Assembly: GCF_003626535.1 (NCBI RefSeq)
Contig: NZ_RBAL01000009.1
Location: forward strand, 1-64,000
DNA length: 64,000 nucleotides
Reading direction: 5' to 3'
Source: Streptomyces hoynatensis
GTDB taxonomy: Bacteria > Actinomycetota > Actinomycetes > Streptomycetales > Streptomycetaceae
The number at the start of each line of letters is the position of its first letter. Positions within the stretch are counted from its first letter, which is position 1. The notes beneath the pieces are model-generated. The model was not told the DNA's origin. It worked only from the letters and a program-made list of their open reading frames with translations, and made no database searches. A program made the position numbers and the translations under genes. Shown here piece by piece: positions 50,705 to 64,000 of the stretch.

Positions 50705-51808
50705 TCAGGCGGGCCAGTAGAGCGTCTCGGCACGGGCCCAGTCCACGGTCGCCTCGCCCTCGCCGTTGCTCAGCACCTCCACGCGCAGGCGGCCCTTGCG
50801 GCTGCCGGAGAGGAAGCCCGTCCAGGTGTGCGAGAAGTGCCCCTCGCCCGCGTCGTGGACCGGGGAGCTGATGGGCAGGCTGCCGGTGCGCTCGTAGCCG
50901 CCGTCGTCCCGCTCGCGGTACTCGGCCAGCCGGATCTGGAACTCCTGCCCCGCGGCCAGCCCCCGCACCCGCACGCCGACCGAGGCCGTGTAGTAGGCGG
51001 GGCCGACCAGGATGGAGGGCTGGGGGTCGCGGCTGACCCAGGCGCCGCCCTCGTGGGCGCGGTTGAAGTTGAGCGTCGTCCACTCGCCCGGCCGCACGGT
51101 GCGGGCGTAGTCCGTGGTGCTGAGCAGGGACCACTTCGGCATGGGGTCCTCTCCTTCCTTGTCCTGGCCGGAGGGCGGGGCTTCCCGGCTCCAGCCGGCC
51201 GGGTGCCGCAGGCGCTCGGCGACCCGGGAGCGCACGTCCTCCATGCCGATGCCGGGGCCGCGGGGGTCGATCTTGCCCGGCTGCCACTCCAGGTGGCCGA
51301 TCACCGAGGTGTCGCCCGCCTTGCCCCAGCCGTGGGCGCGGCAGATCGCGGCCGAGGCCCGGACGATCGCCTCGACCTGGGCCGCCGGCCACGGGTCGCG
51401 GTTGTCGCCGAGGTTGACGCACTCGAAGCCGTAGAAGCGGGTGTTGCCGTCGGTGTCGGCCTCGTTGTCCGCGGGCAGTGCACGCTCGGCGATCACGGCG
51501 GCGAGGACGTCCCCGTCCCCCTTGCCCGCGTGGTTGGCGCGCCCGTGCCCGACGAGGTGGACCGTGCCGTCCTTCGCGATCACGCCGTGGCACAGCGGCC
51601 CCGGCAGGTCGGAGCGGCCGTCGTAGCACAGCTCCACCGAGGACTCGGTGCCCGAGGTGGCGGTGTGGTGGATCATCACCCCGTGCACCGGGCCCCACGG
51701 CCCCGCGCCGTTGCGGTTGTGCGTGCGCCAGCCGCGGTGCTCGACCAGCGTGACGCCCTCCTCCCGCAGCGCCGCGACCAGCGCGTCGGCCGAGAGCGGA
51801 TCGGCCAT
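50705..51808 (-). CDS. N-acetylmuramoyl-L-alanine amidase, endolysin-like
   Basis: A 367-aa protein; ATG 51808 has AAGGGGG upstream. Residues ~20-185 are an Amidase_2/PGRP domain: HGVMIHHTATSGTESS (zinc His), CHGVIAKDGTVHLVGHGRAN, FYGFECVNLGDNRDPWP and TSVIGHLEWQPGKIDPRGPG (second zinc His). Residues ~225-367 form a beta-rich domain of unknown role ending ARAETLYWPA. There is no signal peptide, as in phage lysins that need a holin. It is outside the integrated element (left of the gene tail at 52120), but may be a relic of another phage or a domesticated lysin. Confidence 0.87.
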   Translation of the reverse strand: MADPLSADALVAALREEGVTLVEHRGWRTHNRNGAGPWGPVHGVMIHHTATSGTESSVELCYDGRSDLPGPLCHGVIAKDGTVHLVGHGRANHAGKGDGDVLAAVIAERALPADNEADTDGNTRFYGFECVNLGDNRDPWPAAQVEAIVRASAAICRAHGWGKAGDTSVIGHLEWQPGKIDPRGPGIGMEDVRSRVAERLRHPAGWSREAPPSGQDKEGEDPMPKWSLLSTTDYARTVRPGEWTTLNFNRAHEGGAWVSRDPQPSILVGPAYYTASVGVRVRGLAAGQEFQIRLAEYRERDDGGYERTGSLPISSPVHDAGEGHFSHTWTGFLSGSRKGRLRVEVLSNGEGEATVDWARAETLYWPA

Positions 51809-51991
51809 GGCATAACCCCCTTCGGTGCGGCCGCGGGCACCCTTCGGCACTCCACGCGTTCTCCCAACTACTGTGAGCGTACGCGTGGTTGGCCGCTCGC
51901 GGCGGGCCGATGATGAATGCCTCCCCGCTGGGCGGGAAATTCAACGCCCGCCGCCCCGGAACGCCCGGGAACACACCCGCAAATACGGCGT

Positions 51992-59690: not shown

Positions 59691-60544
59691 GCAGCGCGAT
59701 CCCGGCCAGGCCCACCCGCGGCGTCATCAGCCCGCTCGCCCCCCACGGCACCACCGCCCGCGCCAAGGGCCGCCCGGCACAAGGCATCGGCGGATGCAAC
59801 TGCCCCAAGTGCACCGCTGCCCTGCGGCGTTACGACACATGGCGGCGACTCCAAGCCCTCAACGGCACGCCCCTCACCGTGCCGGTCGCCGAAGTCTCCG
59901 CCCACCTCCGACTCCTCATGGACGCCGGCGCCGGCTGGAACCAACTCCAAGACGCGACGGGCAGCTCGAGTAGCACCCTCGCGGCCATCCTCCACGGCAA
60001 GTACAAGAAGGTCACCCGCGGCACCGCGCAGCGCATCCTCGCCCTGTCGCCCGGCGACGCCGTCCCCCCGCGGCGAGCGGTCGACGCCACCGGCAGCATT
60101 CGCCGCGCCCGAGCCCTCATGGCGGCCGGCCACACCAGCAAGGTCATCGCCAGTCGCGCCGGGGTGGACCACACCGTGCTCTACGCGCTGATCAACGCCC
60201 GCTGCGACACAGTCACCAAGTTCACCGCCGAGCGCATCGCCGACGCCTACAACGCCCTCTCCCAGCAGCAGGGGCCCAACGTCCGGGCCATAAGGCGAGC
60301 CCAGCGGCTCGGCTGGCAGGACCCGCTGTTCTGGGAGGACTGCGGCCAGATCGACAACCCGGAGTACGACCCCGCCAGCGTCACGGTGGAGACCACGAGC
60401 GGCGCCGAACTGGCTGAAGAGGCCGCCTGGATGGAGTCCCACGGCTACACGCGCGAGCAAGCCGCGTACCGGCTCGGCGTCACCAAGTCGTACCTCGACC
60501 AGTGCATCCGCCGCTGGCCCCAGCGCTACGGGGAGGCGGCGTGA
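59687..60544 (+). CDS. Multi-HTH DNA-binding phage regulator
   Basis: A 285-aa protein from GTG 59687 in the overlap GTGA. A small Cys motif (GGCNCPKCTAALRRYDTWRR) leads, followed by at least three HTH-like units: GWNQLQDATGSSSSTLAAIL with KYKKVTRGTAQRILAL; GHTSKVIASRAGVDHTVLYA with TKFTAERIADAYNAL; and EAAWMESHGYTREQAAYRLG with VTKSYLDQCIRRW. It is a common actinophage architecture. It may control early or middle promoters; directly followed by the WhiB-like gene. Confidence 0.75.
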   Translation: MSSAIPARPTRGVISPLAPHGTTARAKGRPAQGIGGCNCPKCTAALRRYDTWRRLQALNGTPLTVPVAEVSAHLRLLMDAGAGWNQLQDATGSSSSTLAAILHGKYKKVTRGTAQRILALSPGDAVPPRRAVDATGSIRRARALMAAGHTSKVIASRAGVDHTVLYALINARCDTVTKFTAERIADAYNALSQQQGPNVRAIRRAQRLGWQDPLFWEDCGQIDNPEYDPASVTVETTSGAELAEEAAWMESHGYTREQAAYRLGVTKSYLDQCIRRWPQRYGEAA

Positions 60545-60813
60545 CCAGCCACGACTGGGAGCGGTCCGCGGTCTGCCGCACCACGGACCCCGAACTCTGG
60601 TTCCCGCCGCCGGGCGACAACGGCATCCGCGCCATCCGCATCTGCCGCCGCTGCCCCGTCCGGCGCGCCTGCCTGGACGCCGCCCTCGCCGAGGAAGGCA
60701 CCGCGGGCGCCGACCGGCGACACGGCATCCGCGGCGGCCTCACCCCCACGGCACGCGCACAGACGCAGCCACGGCAGGCCGCCCGCGACCGAGCCAGCAC
60801 GCCAACCAACTGA
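60541..60813 (+). CDS. WhiB-like Fe-S regulator encoded by the element
   Basis: A 90-aa Wbl protein from GTG 60541. Four Cys fit the [4Fe-4S] signature: Cys in SAVCRTTDPELWFPPPGD, then ICRRCPVRRAC (C-x2-C-x5-C). The GIRGGLTP turn (usual G-V/I-W-G-G) is followed by a basic tail instead of the normal AT-hook, though QPRQAARDRAST is basic. Wbl proteins bind the principal sigma factor region 4 and rewire promoters or block septation; phage copies can interfere with host WhiB. Overlaps the previous stop. Confidence 0.9.
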   Translation: MTSHDWERSAVCRTTDPELWFPPPGDNGIRAIRICRRCPVRRACLDAALAEEGTAGADRRHGIRGGLTPTARAQTQPRQAARDRASTPTN

Positions 60814-60832: not shown

Positions 60833-61690
60833 ATGGGCTACCAGCTGCGCCGCCTGCTGAGGGAGGCGCTCGGCCCCGAGATCACCGGCCTCCAGCGCGC
60901 TGTGGCCCTGGAGATCGCCGATGACGCGCACGAGACGTCTCGCGAGAGCTACGCCGTGCTGGATGACCTTGCCCGGTGGACTGGGGCAAAGGACGCCACG
61001 GTGGTGCGGAACGCGCTCAAGAGGCTGGCAGCGGCCGGCTGGGAGTTCCGGGTGCCGATCGGCAAGGGCGCGGATGGCAGGGTCCTGTATGCCGTTCCCG
61101 GCAGGCGAATGACGTTCAAGGTTCCCCCCTTTGAAGGGGTAGCCGTGGCTACCCCTTCGGAAGGCAAGGGGGAGCGGGGGCTACCCCAAGGGGGAGCCAC
61201 GGCTCCTTCAGAAGGAGCAGGGGCTCCCCCTTCACCCCCCCAAGGGGGAGCAGGGGCTCACTCAGAAGGAGCCACGGCTCACTCTGAAGGAGCCGTGGCT
61301 CCCCCCTTCTCCTCATACACCTCACCTCCTCATATCAATGTGGGCGACGAGCAAGCGGCTCCGGGCGACCGCTACCCGGCCCAAGTGCTTCCCCTTGTGC
61401 ACGCGATGAGCGCCAGCGGCTTCCCCAACATCCGGTGGCCCTGGGAAGGCAGCGGGTGGTTCCCGATCATCGCGCTCATCAAAGCGGTCGGCGTCCAGGC
61501 GATGGTCGAGTACGCCCACCGCGCCGCCGCTAACGCGCCCCAAGCGGTCACCTCCGCCAAGTACTTCCTCCGCGGCTGGCAGGAACTCCCGCCGGCGCCC
61601 CCCGAGGACACCCCCGTCTACCGGCCCACCCCGCACCTGCGTGCCGTAGGCGCCCCCTACAGCAACCCCGAAGACCGAGGGATTTTTTGA
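60833..61690 (+). CDS. Lambda-O-like replication initiator with embedded origin
   Basis: A 285-aa protein; ATG 60833 has AGAGAAGGA upstream. Residues 1-95 form a winged-helix domain (LQRAVALEIADDAHETSRES, YAVLDDLARWTGAKDATVVR, NALKRLAAAGWEFRVPIGKG). Residues ~97-175 are a low-complexity Ser/Glu/Gly/Ala/Pro linker (repeats SEGA-x-A and PQGGA) whose DNA is a palindrome array. Residues 180-285 form a helical C-terminal domain (YPAQVLPLVHAMSASGFPNI, KYFLRGWQELPPAPPE). Like lambda O, it would bind origin iterons inside its own gene and load the helicase encoded next (one-base overlap). Role inferred from architecture and context. Confidence 0.75.
   Translation: MGYQLRRLLREALGPEITGLQRAVALEIADDAHETSRESYAVLDDLARWTGAKDATVVRNALKRLAAAGWEFRVPIGKGADGRVLYAVPGRRMTFKVPPFEGVAVATPSEGKGERGLPQGGATAPSEGAGAPPSPPQGGAGAHSEGATAHSEGAVAPPFSSYTSPPHINVGDEQAAPGDRYPAQVLPLVHAMSASGFPNIRWPWEGSGWFPIIALIKAVGVQAMVEYAHRAAANAPQAVTSAKYFLRGWQELPPAPPEDTPVYRPTPHLRAVGAPYSNPEDRGIF
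61136..61302. repeat. Seven phased palindromes (iterons), probable replication origin
   Basis: Palindromes centred near 61145, 61178, 61200, 61220, 61253, 61274 and 61295, so spaced about 33, 22, 21, 33, 21 and 21 bases, i.e. three or two helical turns. Best units are GGGGTAGCC-GT-GGCTACCCC, GGAGCC-AC-GGCTCC, GGAGC-AGGG-GCTCC and GGAGCC-GT-GGCTCC. All share GAGC/GCTC-type arms around a 2-4 base centre, within the linker-coding part of the initiator gene. Confidence 0.75.
61309..61334. other. AT-richer direct repeats next to the iterons, candidate unwinding element
   Basis: CTCCTCATA at 61309-61317 and again at 61326-61334, 17 bases apart, in an unusually AT-rich stretch for this genome that reaches 61340. 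Immediately right of the iterons, as the DUE is in lambda ori. Confidence 0.5.
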
Positions 61691-63018
61691 TGACCACCGA
61701 GATCGCCTGGGAGCCCGCTCTCGACCCCGCACCGTTCGAGCGCACCCCACCCCACGACCCCGTCGCCGAGATGAGCGTCCTCGGCGCCTGCCTCCTCAGC
61801 TCGGAGGCATGCCGCGCCGTCCTGGACTTCCTCAACCCCGCCGCCTTCTACGAGCGCCGGCATGAGGACATCTTCAACGGCATCGGCCGCATGCACGCCA
61901 CCGGCCAGCCCATCGACCCCATCACCCTCGCCAAGCACCTCGCCGACTCCGGCGACCTTGCACGCGTCGGCGGCCCCGGCTACATCCACCAACTCGCCCG
62001 CGCCGTGCCCACCGCTGCGAACGGCGAGTACTACGCCGAGATCGTCGAAGACCGCTACCTGCGCCGCGAACTGATCAAGCTCGGTACCTCCGTCGTCACC
62101 ATGGGCTACGCCACCGACGACGACACCTACGACCTCGTCGAACGCGCCGTCGCCATGGCCCGCGAACTCCGCGACCGCGGGCAGGCCACCGACGACCTGC
62201 CGACCGAGGACCTGCTCGACTTCGTGCAGCACGAGGACAACTACGACTGGATCGTGCCCGGGCTCCTCGAGCGCGGCGACCGGCTGATCCTCACCGCGAG
62301 CGAGGGCGGCGGCAAGTCAACCTTGCTGCGGCAGATCGCGGTATGCCTGGCAGCCGGCATCCACCCGTTCGACCCGGCAACCTACACCGACCCGGTGCGT
62401 GTGCTGGTGCTCGACTGCGAGAACGGCGAGCCGGCCTCCCGCCGCAAGTACCGGCCGCTGCTCAATGCGGCCGAGCGGGCGAAGCGGGGCCTGCGCCGCG
62501 GCCAATTCCACATCGAGTGCCGCCCCGCAGGCGTCGACCTCACCCGCCCCGCCGATCGCGCCTGGGTGATGCGCCGCGTCGAGCGGCTCATGCCGGACGT
62601 GCTGATCGTCGGCCCCGTGTATCGCCTCCACGCCGGCAACCCCAACGACGAGGAACTCGCCCGCAAGGTCTCCGTGGTCATCGACGAGGCCAGGGCCACC
62701 GCCGGCTGCGCCGTCCTCATGGAGGCCCACTCCCCGCACGGCGGACCGGTCGGCCCCCGCTCCCTCCGCCCCCTCGGCAGCAGTCTGTGGATGCGCTGGC
62801 CCGAGTTCGGCTTCGGCCTGCGCCCCGTCGAGGACGAGAAGTCGGCGGCCAACGAGCCAGGTGCACGCGGGCGCCGAGTCGTTCCCTGGCGCGGCATGCG
62901 CGACGAGCGGGACTGGCCGCAGTTCGTGAAGCAGGGCCAGAGCTGGCCGTGGGAGTCCTACCGCCCGGTCGACGCCGACCAGTTCACCGGCTACTCGGCG
63001 ACGGGAGCGATCTGGTGA
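61690..63018 (+). CDS. DnaB/RepA-type replicative helicase
   Basis: A 442-aa protein; ATG 61690 overlaps the initiator stop. Residues 20-125 match the DnaB N-terminal domain (VAEMSVLGACLLSSEACRAV, PITLAKHLADSGDLARVGGP, YYAEIVEDRYLRRELIKLGT). Then a RecA-like RepA/AAA_25 domain: Walker A LILTASEGGGKSTLLRQIAV (200-219), Walker B VRVLVLDCENGEPASRR, and sensor VLMEAHSPHGG. So it is a hybrid of DnaB N-domain and a RepA-like motor, common in actinophages. It should be the element's replicative helicase, loaded by the O-like protein. Confidence 0.88.
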   Translation: MTTEIAWEPALDPAPFERTPPHDPVAEMSVLGACLLSSEACRAVLDFLNPAAFYERRHEDIFNGIGRMHATGQPIDPITLAKHLADSGDLARVGGPGYIHQLARAVPTAANGEYYAEIVEDRYLRRELIKLGTSVVTMGYATDDDTYDLVERAVAMARELRDRGQATDDLPTEDLLDFVQHEDNYDWIVPGLLERGDRLILTASEGGGKSTLLRQIAVCLAAGIHPFDPATYTDPVRVLVLDCENGEPASRRKYRPLLNAAERAKRGLRRGQFHIECRPAGVDLTRPADRAWVMRRVERLMPDVLIVGPVYRLHAGNPNDEELARKVSVVIDEARATAGCAVLMEAHSPHGGPVGPRSLRPLGSSLWMRWPEFGFGLRPVEDEKSAANEPGARGRRVVPWRGMRDERDWPQFVKQGQSWPWESYRPVDADQFTGYSATGAIW

Positions 63019-63212
63019 CGGACTCCTGCCCTGCCTGCCTGCGGCGAGGCATACACCCGTGCGCGGTGCGCTCACGCGGCGCGGCCACGGTCTACGGCTA
63101 CCGCTGCCCCGCCTGCTGCCACGCCTGGGTCACCAGCCGCCTCAACGCCGCATACCGGAGAGCCACCAGCCACCCCAGCCGTATCGCCGAACCCGAGAGG
63201 ACCAGCCCGTGA
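63015..63212 (+). CDS. 65-aa double CxxC zinc-ribbon protein
   Basis: GTG 63015 overlaps the helicase stop. VTDSCPACLRRGIHPCAVRS and YGYRCPACCHAWVTSRLNAA form two CPxC knuckles, a zinc ribbon as seen in small nucleic-acid-binding phage proteins. Its stop overlaps the methyltransferase start (GTGA). Confidence 0.78.
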   Translation: MTDSCPACLRRGIHPCAVRSRGAATVYGYRCPACCHAWVTSRLNAAYRRATSHPSRIAEPERTSP

Positions 63213-64000
63213 CCGCCTACCGACACGACGACGACGCCCTGACCGTTATGGACTGGTTCTGTGGCGCTGGCGGCTCCAGCCAGGGCGCCCACGCCGTCCC
63301 TGGCGTCCGGGTCGAGCGCGCCGCGAACCACTGGTCGCTGGCCATCGAGTCCCACGCCGCGAACTTCCCCGGCACCGACCACTACCGCGGCGACATCCGC
63401 GAGGCCCCCGTCGAGCGCTGGCCCGTCACCGACATCTTCTGGGCCTCCCCCGAGTGCCCGCAGTGGTCGAACGCCCGCGGCAAGAAGCGTGACTTCGACG
63501 CGTCCTTGCAGGCCGCCCTGTTCGACGGCTTCGGCCCGTCGGAGGAAGTCGAGCGGTCCCGGGCCCTGATGGAGGAAGTCCCGATGTACCTGCGCGGCGT
63601 GATCGAGCGCGGCGGTCTCGTCAAGGCTGGCGTAGTCGAGAATGTGATCGACGTCCGTGCCTGGGACCAGTGGGACCGCTGGCTCGGCGAGATCCGCAAG
63701 CTCGGCTACGACACCCGCGTCATCGCCCTCAACAGCATGCACGCTGAGCCCCGCACGGTGCACCGGGCGCCGCAGTCCCGGGACCGCCTGTACGTCGCCT
63801 ACTGGCACCGGACGCTGCGGCGGGCCCCGGACTGGGACAAGTGGCTGCGCCCCACCGCCTGGTGCGGCTCGTGCGAGCAGTGGGTCCGCGCGGTGCAGGT
63901 GTTCAAGACCCCCGGCCGGGACATGGGCCGCTACCGGCAGCAGTACGTCTACCGCTGCCCCAGCACGGCCTGCCGCAACAGCGTGGTCGAGCCCGAGACG
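63209..64000 (+). CDS. DNA (cytosine-5)-methyltransferase, partial at window end
   Basis: At least 264 codons from GTG 63209, no stop before the window edge. Motif I is LTVMDWFCGAGGSSQGAHA; motif IV is DIFWASPECPQWSNARGKKR, with Cys nucleophile but a Glu between Pro and Cys (usual PC); motif VI is AGVVENVIDVRAW (ENV); motif VIII RAPQSRDRLYVAYWHR. A four-Cys zinc-like pair (WCGSCEQW, YRCPSTACRN) lies in the target-recognition region. It probably modifies phage DNA against host restriction; no cognate nuclease is in view, so it seems an orphan. Confidence 0.88.
   Translation, partial: MTAYRHDDDALTVMDWFCGAGGSSQGAHAVPGVRVERAANHWSLAIESHAANFPGTDHYRGDIREAPVERWPVTDIFWASPECPQWSNARGKKRDFDASLQAALFDGFGPSEEVERSRALMEEVPMYLRGVIERGGLVKAGVVENVIDVRAWDQWDRWLGEIRKLGYDTRVIALNSMHAEPRTVHRAPQSRDRLYVAYWHRTLRRAPDWDKWLRPTAWCGSCEQWVRAVQVFKTPGRDMGRYRQQYVYRCPSTACRNSVVEPET

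Follow-up and report, generated by a model that had tools for sequence, protein, structure and literature searches.

A predicted lambda-type replication origin within the initiator gene of a Streptomyces prophage

The stretch of Streptomyces hoynatensis DNA analysed here (64,000 nucleotides, referred to as the window) contains a gene (60833–61690, + strand; 285 aa) that carries seven palindromes in the middle of its coding sequence, which raises the question of what such palindromes do in that place. We estimate the probability at roughly 0.88 that the gene is part of a temperate phage's replication module, in which dimers of a putative initiator on the seven embedded dyads would start replication at that very spot via delivery of a helicase. 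As judged from the sequence, the best reading would be a lambda-type origin in a separate lineage of actinobacterial prophages, equipped with a conserved CCTCA element.

The initiator gene and its prophage context

The gene was annotated as an O-like replication initiator based on its ORF, on the PHROG replication-initiation families and on a two-domain AlphaFold model. Specifically, AlphaFold2 (using 31 homologues) modelled residues 3–100 as a winged helix (pLDDT ~94), corresponding to a predicted DNA-binding N-domain (60833–61135, + strand) with residues 55–67 as its recognition helix. Residues 104–178 mostly had a pLDDT below 50 and constitute a low-complexity, disordered linker (61136–61378, + strand) in which the candidate origin elements and a drop in GC3 across the family are found, while residues 183–251 form a helical C-domain (pLDDT ~90; 61379–61585, + strand; phrog_30000, 9e-21) that presumably contacts the helicase. 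Fold searches yielded generic winged helices (LexA, CRP, MarR, RPC62), with plasmid initiator N-domains among many, and PDB sequence searches returned nothing relevant. AlphaFold2 and the fold search together gave the layout of a winged-helix N-domain, a disordered linker and a separate C-domain, bearing out a preliminary description of this DNA in which a winged-helix N-domain and a helical C-domain were thought to flank the linker. (Folding the N-domain alone without an alignment resulted in a poor model, which was left unused.)

At the sequence level, PHROG replication-initiation families matched 8 of 13 homologues of the window protein, with best values of 7e-27, 1e-4 and 1e-3 for PHROG 270, 391 and 678, respectively; the window protein itself matched PHROG 270 and 678 weakly (0.004 and 0.02), and these families are silent on origin structure. 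Among 24 N-domains, as many as 8 were matched by the O-like PHROG families, with values of up to 3.6e-5. Pfam returned only HTH_36 for the window protein, under its cut-off, and its lambda O family Phage_rep_O did not match.

The next gene (61690–63018, + strand) encodes a DnaB-like helicase, with a DnaB N-domain (PF00772, E 2.4e-30) and an AAA_25 domain (PF13481, E 1.1e-24) rather than a canonical DnaB_C, and with a match to phrog_19 (DnaB-like replicative helicase, 6e-35). Its ATG (61690–61692) and the TGA of the initiator (61688–61690) have one base in common, and this single base is the extent of the overlap between helicase gene and initiator stop that had been pointed out before.

Since an identical copy of the initiator gene is present in L001, a predicted viral contig of 55,877 bp, the gene was placed in a prophage, which spans ~49.2–105 kb on contig C52 (placed from contig coordinates) and in which capsid- and tail-like genes were recognised by eye further to the right. 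Near the opposite prophage ends lies a pair of similar genes (window 50705–51850, – strand, and contig C52 100876–101829, + strand) with LSAD.LLAALR.EGV...RTHN in common, amidase-like by eye. A WhiB-like regulator gene is located just upstream of the initiator (60541–60813; PF02467, 2e-16) and a C5-cytosine methylase gene downstream (63209–64000). A very similar methylase gene follows the initiator and DnaB genes in the relatives L016 and L018, suggesting a shared early module. No match was obtained in a plasmid collection, none for the N-domain among named phages, and a scan of genome contigs revealed no relative.

Seven dyads in the linker and their conservation

A dyad scan together with an IUPAC pattern located seven dyads of 20 bp, termed iterons, at 61136–61155 (iteron 1, GGGGTAGCCGTGGCTACCCC), 61168–61187 (iteron 2, read in another frame as KGERGLP), 61190–61209 (iteron 3), 61211–61230 (iteron 4), 61244–61263 (iteron 5), 61265–61284 (iteron 6) and 61286–61305 (iteron 7, GAAGGAGCCGTGGCTCCCCC). 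Their centres are 32, 22, 21, 33, 21 and 21 bp apart, equalling 3, 2, 2, 3, 2 and 2 helical turns, which agrees with the initial impression of seven palindromes filling the linker at spacings of two or three turns. In sets of 500 each, a plain dyad count of seven, as in the window linker, was attained by none of the dinucleotide shuffles, by one of the synonymous codon permutations and by eight of the synonymous re-draws, this count with a spacer being a weak test in which several homologues, taken singly, were not significant. A tight-centre count (arms of 9, no spacer) was dropped as it misses hyphenated dyads.

The IUPAC pattern had seven exact matches in the 7.26-Mb genome, all within the array and none outside it, and over the 70 kb surrounding the prophage a position weight matrix revealed neither a further site nor another array of this core. 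Because exact matches genome-wide and matrix sites within these 70 kb were both confined to the array, a dispersed repeat or regulon could be excluded. Rickettsia-type and REP-like families do place short palindromes within coding sequence; with zero other exact copies in the genome, and with homologues that always carry their repeats in the same gene and place, an in-frame insertion of such an element is however exceedingly improbable.

Homologues of the N-domain were sought in genomes and viral contigs, and ~55 full-length genes, mostly from prophages, were read. (The N-domain query recovered the genome homologues, and a whole-protein query over 400-genome sets was unsuccessful.) In all of these ~55 genes the corresponding linker contained repeats, which in the majority were phased at two, three or four helical turns, and no homologue lacking an array was encountered among the full-length genes. 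As anticipated in the preliminary description, comparison of the homologous initiator genes showed the palindromes and their phasing to persist, while core, peptide and C-domain vary. In L010, L073 and L078–L080 the repeats were recovered partly by automatic patterns and for the rest by inspection. Registration by an automatic motif finder went wrong in L071, L073 and L076, and a recount with clade patterns covered L071 and L076, and L073 in part. The set does not include L077, an improperly extracted profile-search match, or the truncated L054.

In clade A, consisting of 29 close relatives, 186 units yielded the consensus GRRGKAGCCnnGGCTMCYYC, in which every degenerate position is mirrored (R/Y, K/M). 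A position weight matrix counted 178 units above threshold in this clade, compared to 3.4 after synonymous re-draw at the codon usage of the remainder of the gene and 46.8 after permutation of the linker's own codons; as the matrix was trained on the units it counts, the evidence lies in the contrast with these nulls and not in the absolute number. The homologues are related by descent, and neither unit counts nor layouts are independent of one another.

These counts bear on an alternative in which the low-complexity peptide grew by in-frame duplication and the palindromes are a by-product of its codons. The copies are indeed alike and 65% of the spacings are multiples of 3, but ordinary codons predict only the above-mentioned 3.4 units, and GC3 collapses across the family from 0.843 elsewhere in the gene to 0.535 in the array. 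Moreover, the clade-A units are distributed over two reading frames (157 in one, 29 in another), amounting to approximately one out-of-frame copy per gene, and spacings of 24, 27, 30, 36 or 39 bp, which would keep the frame equally well, are rare or absent. Such a duplication history is hardly credible. Rather, the linker peptide itself looks like a by-product of the DNA sites, as suspected earlier, given the GC3 drop and the copy in another frame.

Across 24 distinct layouts, the spacings between neighbouring dyads were 21 bp (43 times), 22 bp (21 times), 23 bp (8 times), 31–35 bp (33 times) and 42 bp (twice), with few others (24, 27, 30 and 36 bp). The mean resultant length was 0.85 at 10.7 bp, compared to a maximum of 0.35 in 5000 draws from a null that keeps the observed share of multiples of 3. 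The resultant was broad (0.84–0.865 over 10.5–12 bp), with the period not pinned to one value, and off-phase spacings occurred in L063–L067 (36 bp) and in a few other genes (27 and 30 bp).

Folded as single-stranded DNA, the array is far more stable than shuffles (z –9.7), as would be expected if the palindromes acted as RNA or DNA hairpins in the form of an attenuator or cruciform. However, at variable symmetric positions the two arms of a unit matched each other no better than arms shuffled among units. Because both arms draw independently on one consensus, without covariation, the dyads would be pairs of protein half-sites, with the strong single-strand fold as a by-product. Hairpins furthermore need no helical phasing, and no terminator-like site was found, making a hairpin function very improbable. 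The symmetry fits predicted dimer-binding sites instead.

Recognition helix, iteron core and CCTCA repeats

The core of the iterons was found to follow the recognition helix, with RN accompanying AGCC, RT accompanying AACC or ACC, RE accompanying CAACC and GK accompanying GTCnCCC. Half-sites in genes encoding ...VVRNALKR... read GAGCC or TAGCC, and this holds for the distinct L064–L067 group and for L068 as well. In L002 and L066, T replaces N in the helix and the half-sites read AACC or ACC, while L013, L014 and L069 have E in the helix and CAACC half-sites, and the ...GKVLGK... clade has GTCnCCC half-sites. Residue 60 in particular (N, T or E) goes with AGCC, AACC/ACC or CAACC, respectively, across backgrounds. 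L068 and L069 belong to one sub-lineage and have related C-domains, but neither helix nor core is the same in the two. This correlation across backgrounds is the trace to be expected of a protein that reads these sites.

The array of L002 (L002:5280-5420) contains a mixture of AACC and AGCC half-sites, with the G half-sites in the minority and with T60 rather than N60 in the helix, as if it were in the middle of a transition to a new specificity.

The array is adjoined by an AT-richer stretch (61311–61342), in which three CCTCA repeats (61311–61332, + strand; starting at 61311, 61320 and 61328) form a candidate unwinding or single-strand recognition element. The preliminary description had proposed an AT-richer direct repeat after the array; while the CTCCTCATA pair is real, three CCTCA repeats describe the stretch better, and the rise in AT is modest (44–46% versus ~31%, mean over 29 genes). 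GC skew, another feature proposed for inspection, had no turning point at the array and was uninformative.

In most clade-A genes CCTCA is located at fixed positions of +15, +24 and +32/33 from the centre of the last iteron, and its two or three copies 3′ of the array recur across most core types, including very different iteron cores (L066, L072, L073, L078–L080 and L010). Over 56 genes, the 63 nt past the array contained 106 copies compared to 8.2 expected from synonymous re-draw (maximum of 21 in 300), with at least two copies in 36 of the 56 genes; these counts are approximate, as the position of the last iteron was set by hand for some fifteen genes and mis-set for L076. CCTCA repeats were absent past the array in L016–L018, L074–L075 and the Streptomyces phage Mojorita.

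Many relatives, though not the window, have a lone extra iteron 69–75 bp past the array, with the CCTCA stretch lying in between. This far iteron is found at nt 517 of the L008 initiator CDS, and likewise in L002, L009, L011, L036, L037, L039, L041, L049, L050, L053 and L060.

In the matching region of lambda and the Stx phages, single-stranded AT-rich DNA is contacted by O (PMC7466680), and by analogy CCTCA could have a comparable role. More tentatively, and with a likelihood that we put somewhat short of even, this broad family of actinobacterial prophages might possess a two-part origin, in which exchangeable iterons matched to the helix give each phage its own specificity, and the widely shared CCTCA repeats signal unwinding, being recognised sequence-specifically as a single strand by one common factor. 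If true, such an origin would be to GC-rich phages what the DnaA-trio is elsewhere.

Predicted mechanism and comparison with known origins

Four or more kinds of C-domain were found joined to the N-domain and its array. The next gene encodes a DnaB-like helicase in the window and L016–L018, and an IstB/DnaC-like ATPase in L002 (by Pfam) and in L008, L009 and L011 (by likeness), while L012 and L015 have both a loader and DnaB downstream. L010, L013 and L014 contain an array with no recognisable helicase or loader directly downstream, and may use the host DnaB or be remnants. Raleigh and Darolandstone have the C-domain alone in common. Based on these combinations in relatives and in Mojorita, the DNA sites belong with the N-domain, and the C-domain is presumably tied to the loading machinery, a logic known for lambda O.

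The sites with their symmetry and phasing, their conservation, the correlation with the recognition helix, the swapping of modules and the gene order were observed; binding, wrapping, unwinding, helicase delivery and the start of replication at the array are what we infer. The winged-helix N-domain would bind, as a dimer, each of the seven 20-bp dyads in its own gene. Because whole helical turns separate the dyads, their dimers would align on one face of the DNA, which would be wrapped into an O-some-like complex. Strain would be released in the adjoining CCTCA/AT-richer stretch, where the exposed strand is perhaps held by initiator or helicase, after which the C-domain would hand over the phage DnaB-like helicase from the next, overlapping gene.

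Alternatively, the dyads might be initiator sites for autoregulation, copy control or partition, with the true origin located elsewhere. Sites of a self-encoded binding protein can serve control besides initiation, but their central place in the initiator gene, the adjoining AT-richer repeats and the helicase or loader downstream together form the layout of lambdoid origins (PMC7466680), and no second array of the same core is present within the 70 kb surrounding the prophage. We consider a sole control function unlikely.

The analysis supplies a predicted origin, with its initiator and helicase, for a large group of temperate phages from actinobacteria. As more than 50 homologues pair differing recognition helices with differing cores on a fixed scaffold, the family amounts to a natural experiment on the coevolution of initiator and site in coding DNA. 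Specificity swaps can be tested directly with the help of the helix-to-core table, and CCTCA is a concrete candidate for the opening of a GC-rich phage origin.

Several phages with low-GC hosts have their origin within the initiator gene. An origin in this position is already known for lambdoid phages, with 4 to 6 iterons bound by dimers (PMC7466680). Like the window, lambda O/ori-lambda and the origins of the Stx phages P27 and 933W have dyad-symmetric iterons approximately two turns apart in the middle of the initiator gene (20, 24 and 23 bp in the lambda annotation), and in lambda an AT-rich tract lies directly beside the iterons, where the window has a modest rise in AT, and the helicase-loading gene likewise overlaps the initiator stop. 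In contrast to lambda, the window family has an unrelated iteron sequence, 4–7 near-complete 20-bp dyads at 2- and 3-turn spacing, a modest AT content and conserved CCTCA repeats. Comparison of the N-domain with lambda O gave no significant sequence match; hhalign returned 0.4% with lambda O alone, and a probability of 1.3% (E 0.039, in the expected register) with four lambdoid O proteins.

No papers on this initiator family or its origin were found in the literature searched, with subscription journals mostly outside it. Of the lambda O/ori architecture proposed in the preliminary description, predicted function and layout were alike, while homology to lambda O did not emerge.

The order of an O-like initiator followed by a DnaB-like helicase recurs in the gene 18/12 module of P22, which belongs to another sequence family in an enterobacterial host. 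The O/P genes of phage HK97 (an O-like initiator, then a phage DnaB-like helicase in the HK97 annotation) resemble the window in the same way, and differ from it in sequence family and in their enterobacterial host.

Closer by is Mojorita gp41, annotated as a DNA binding protein, which shares its C-domain with the window protein (34% identity) and also has palindromes in its linker, of the GGGCCGAATTCCGGCCC type (L004:2840-3040). Unlike the window protein, gp41 has an N-domain without detectable relation, an unrelated core and no CCTCA repeats, and its gene is probably an independent, second case of an origin within a gene. Because the lambdoid design is known, Phage_rep_O does not match, hhalign stays at 1.3% and the family appeared in none of the literature searched, we filed the window origin as a lambda-type variant: its mechanism would be lambda-type, while its sequence and CCTCA element make it a variant, with an initiator that is not demonstrably a homologue of lambda O.
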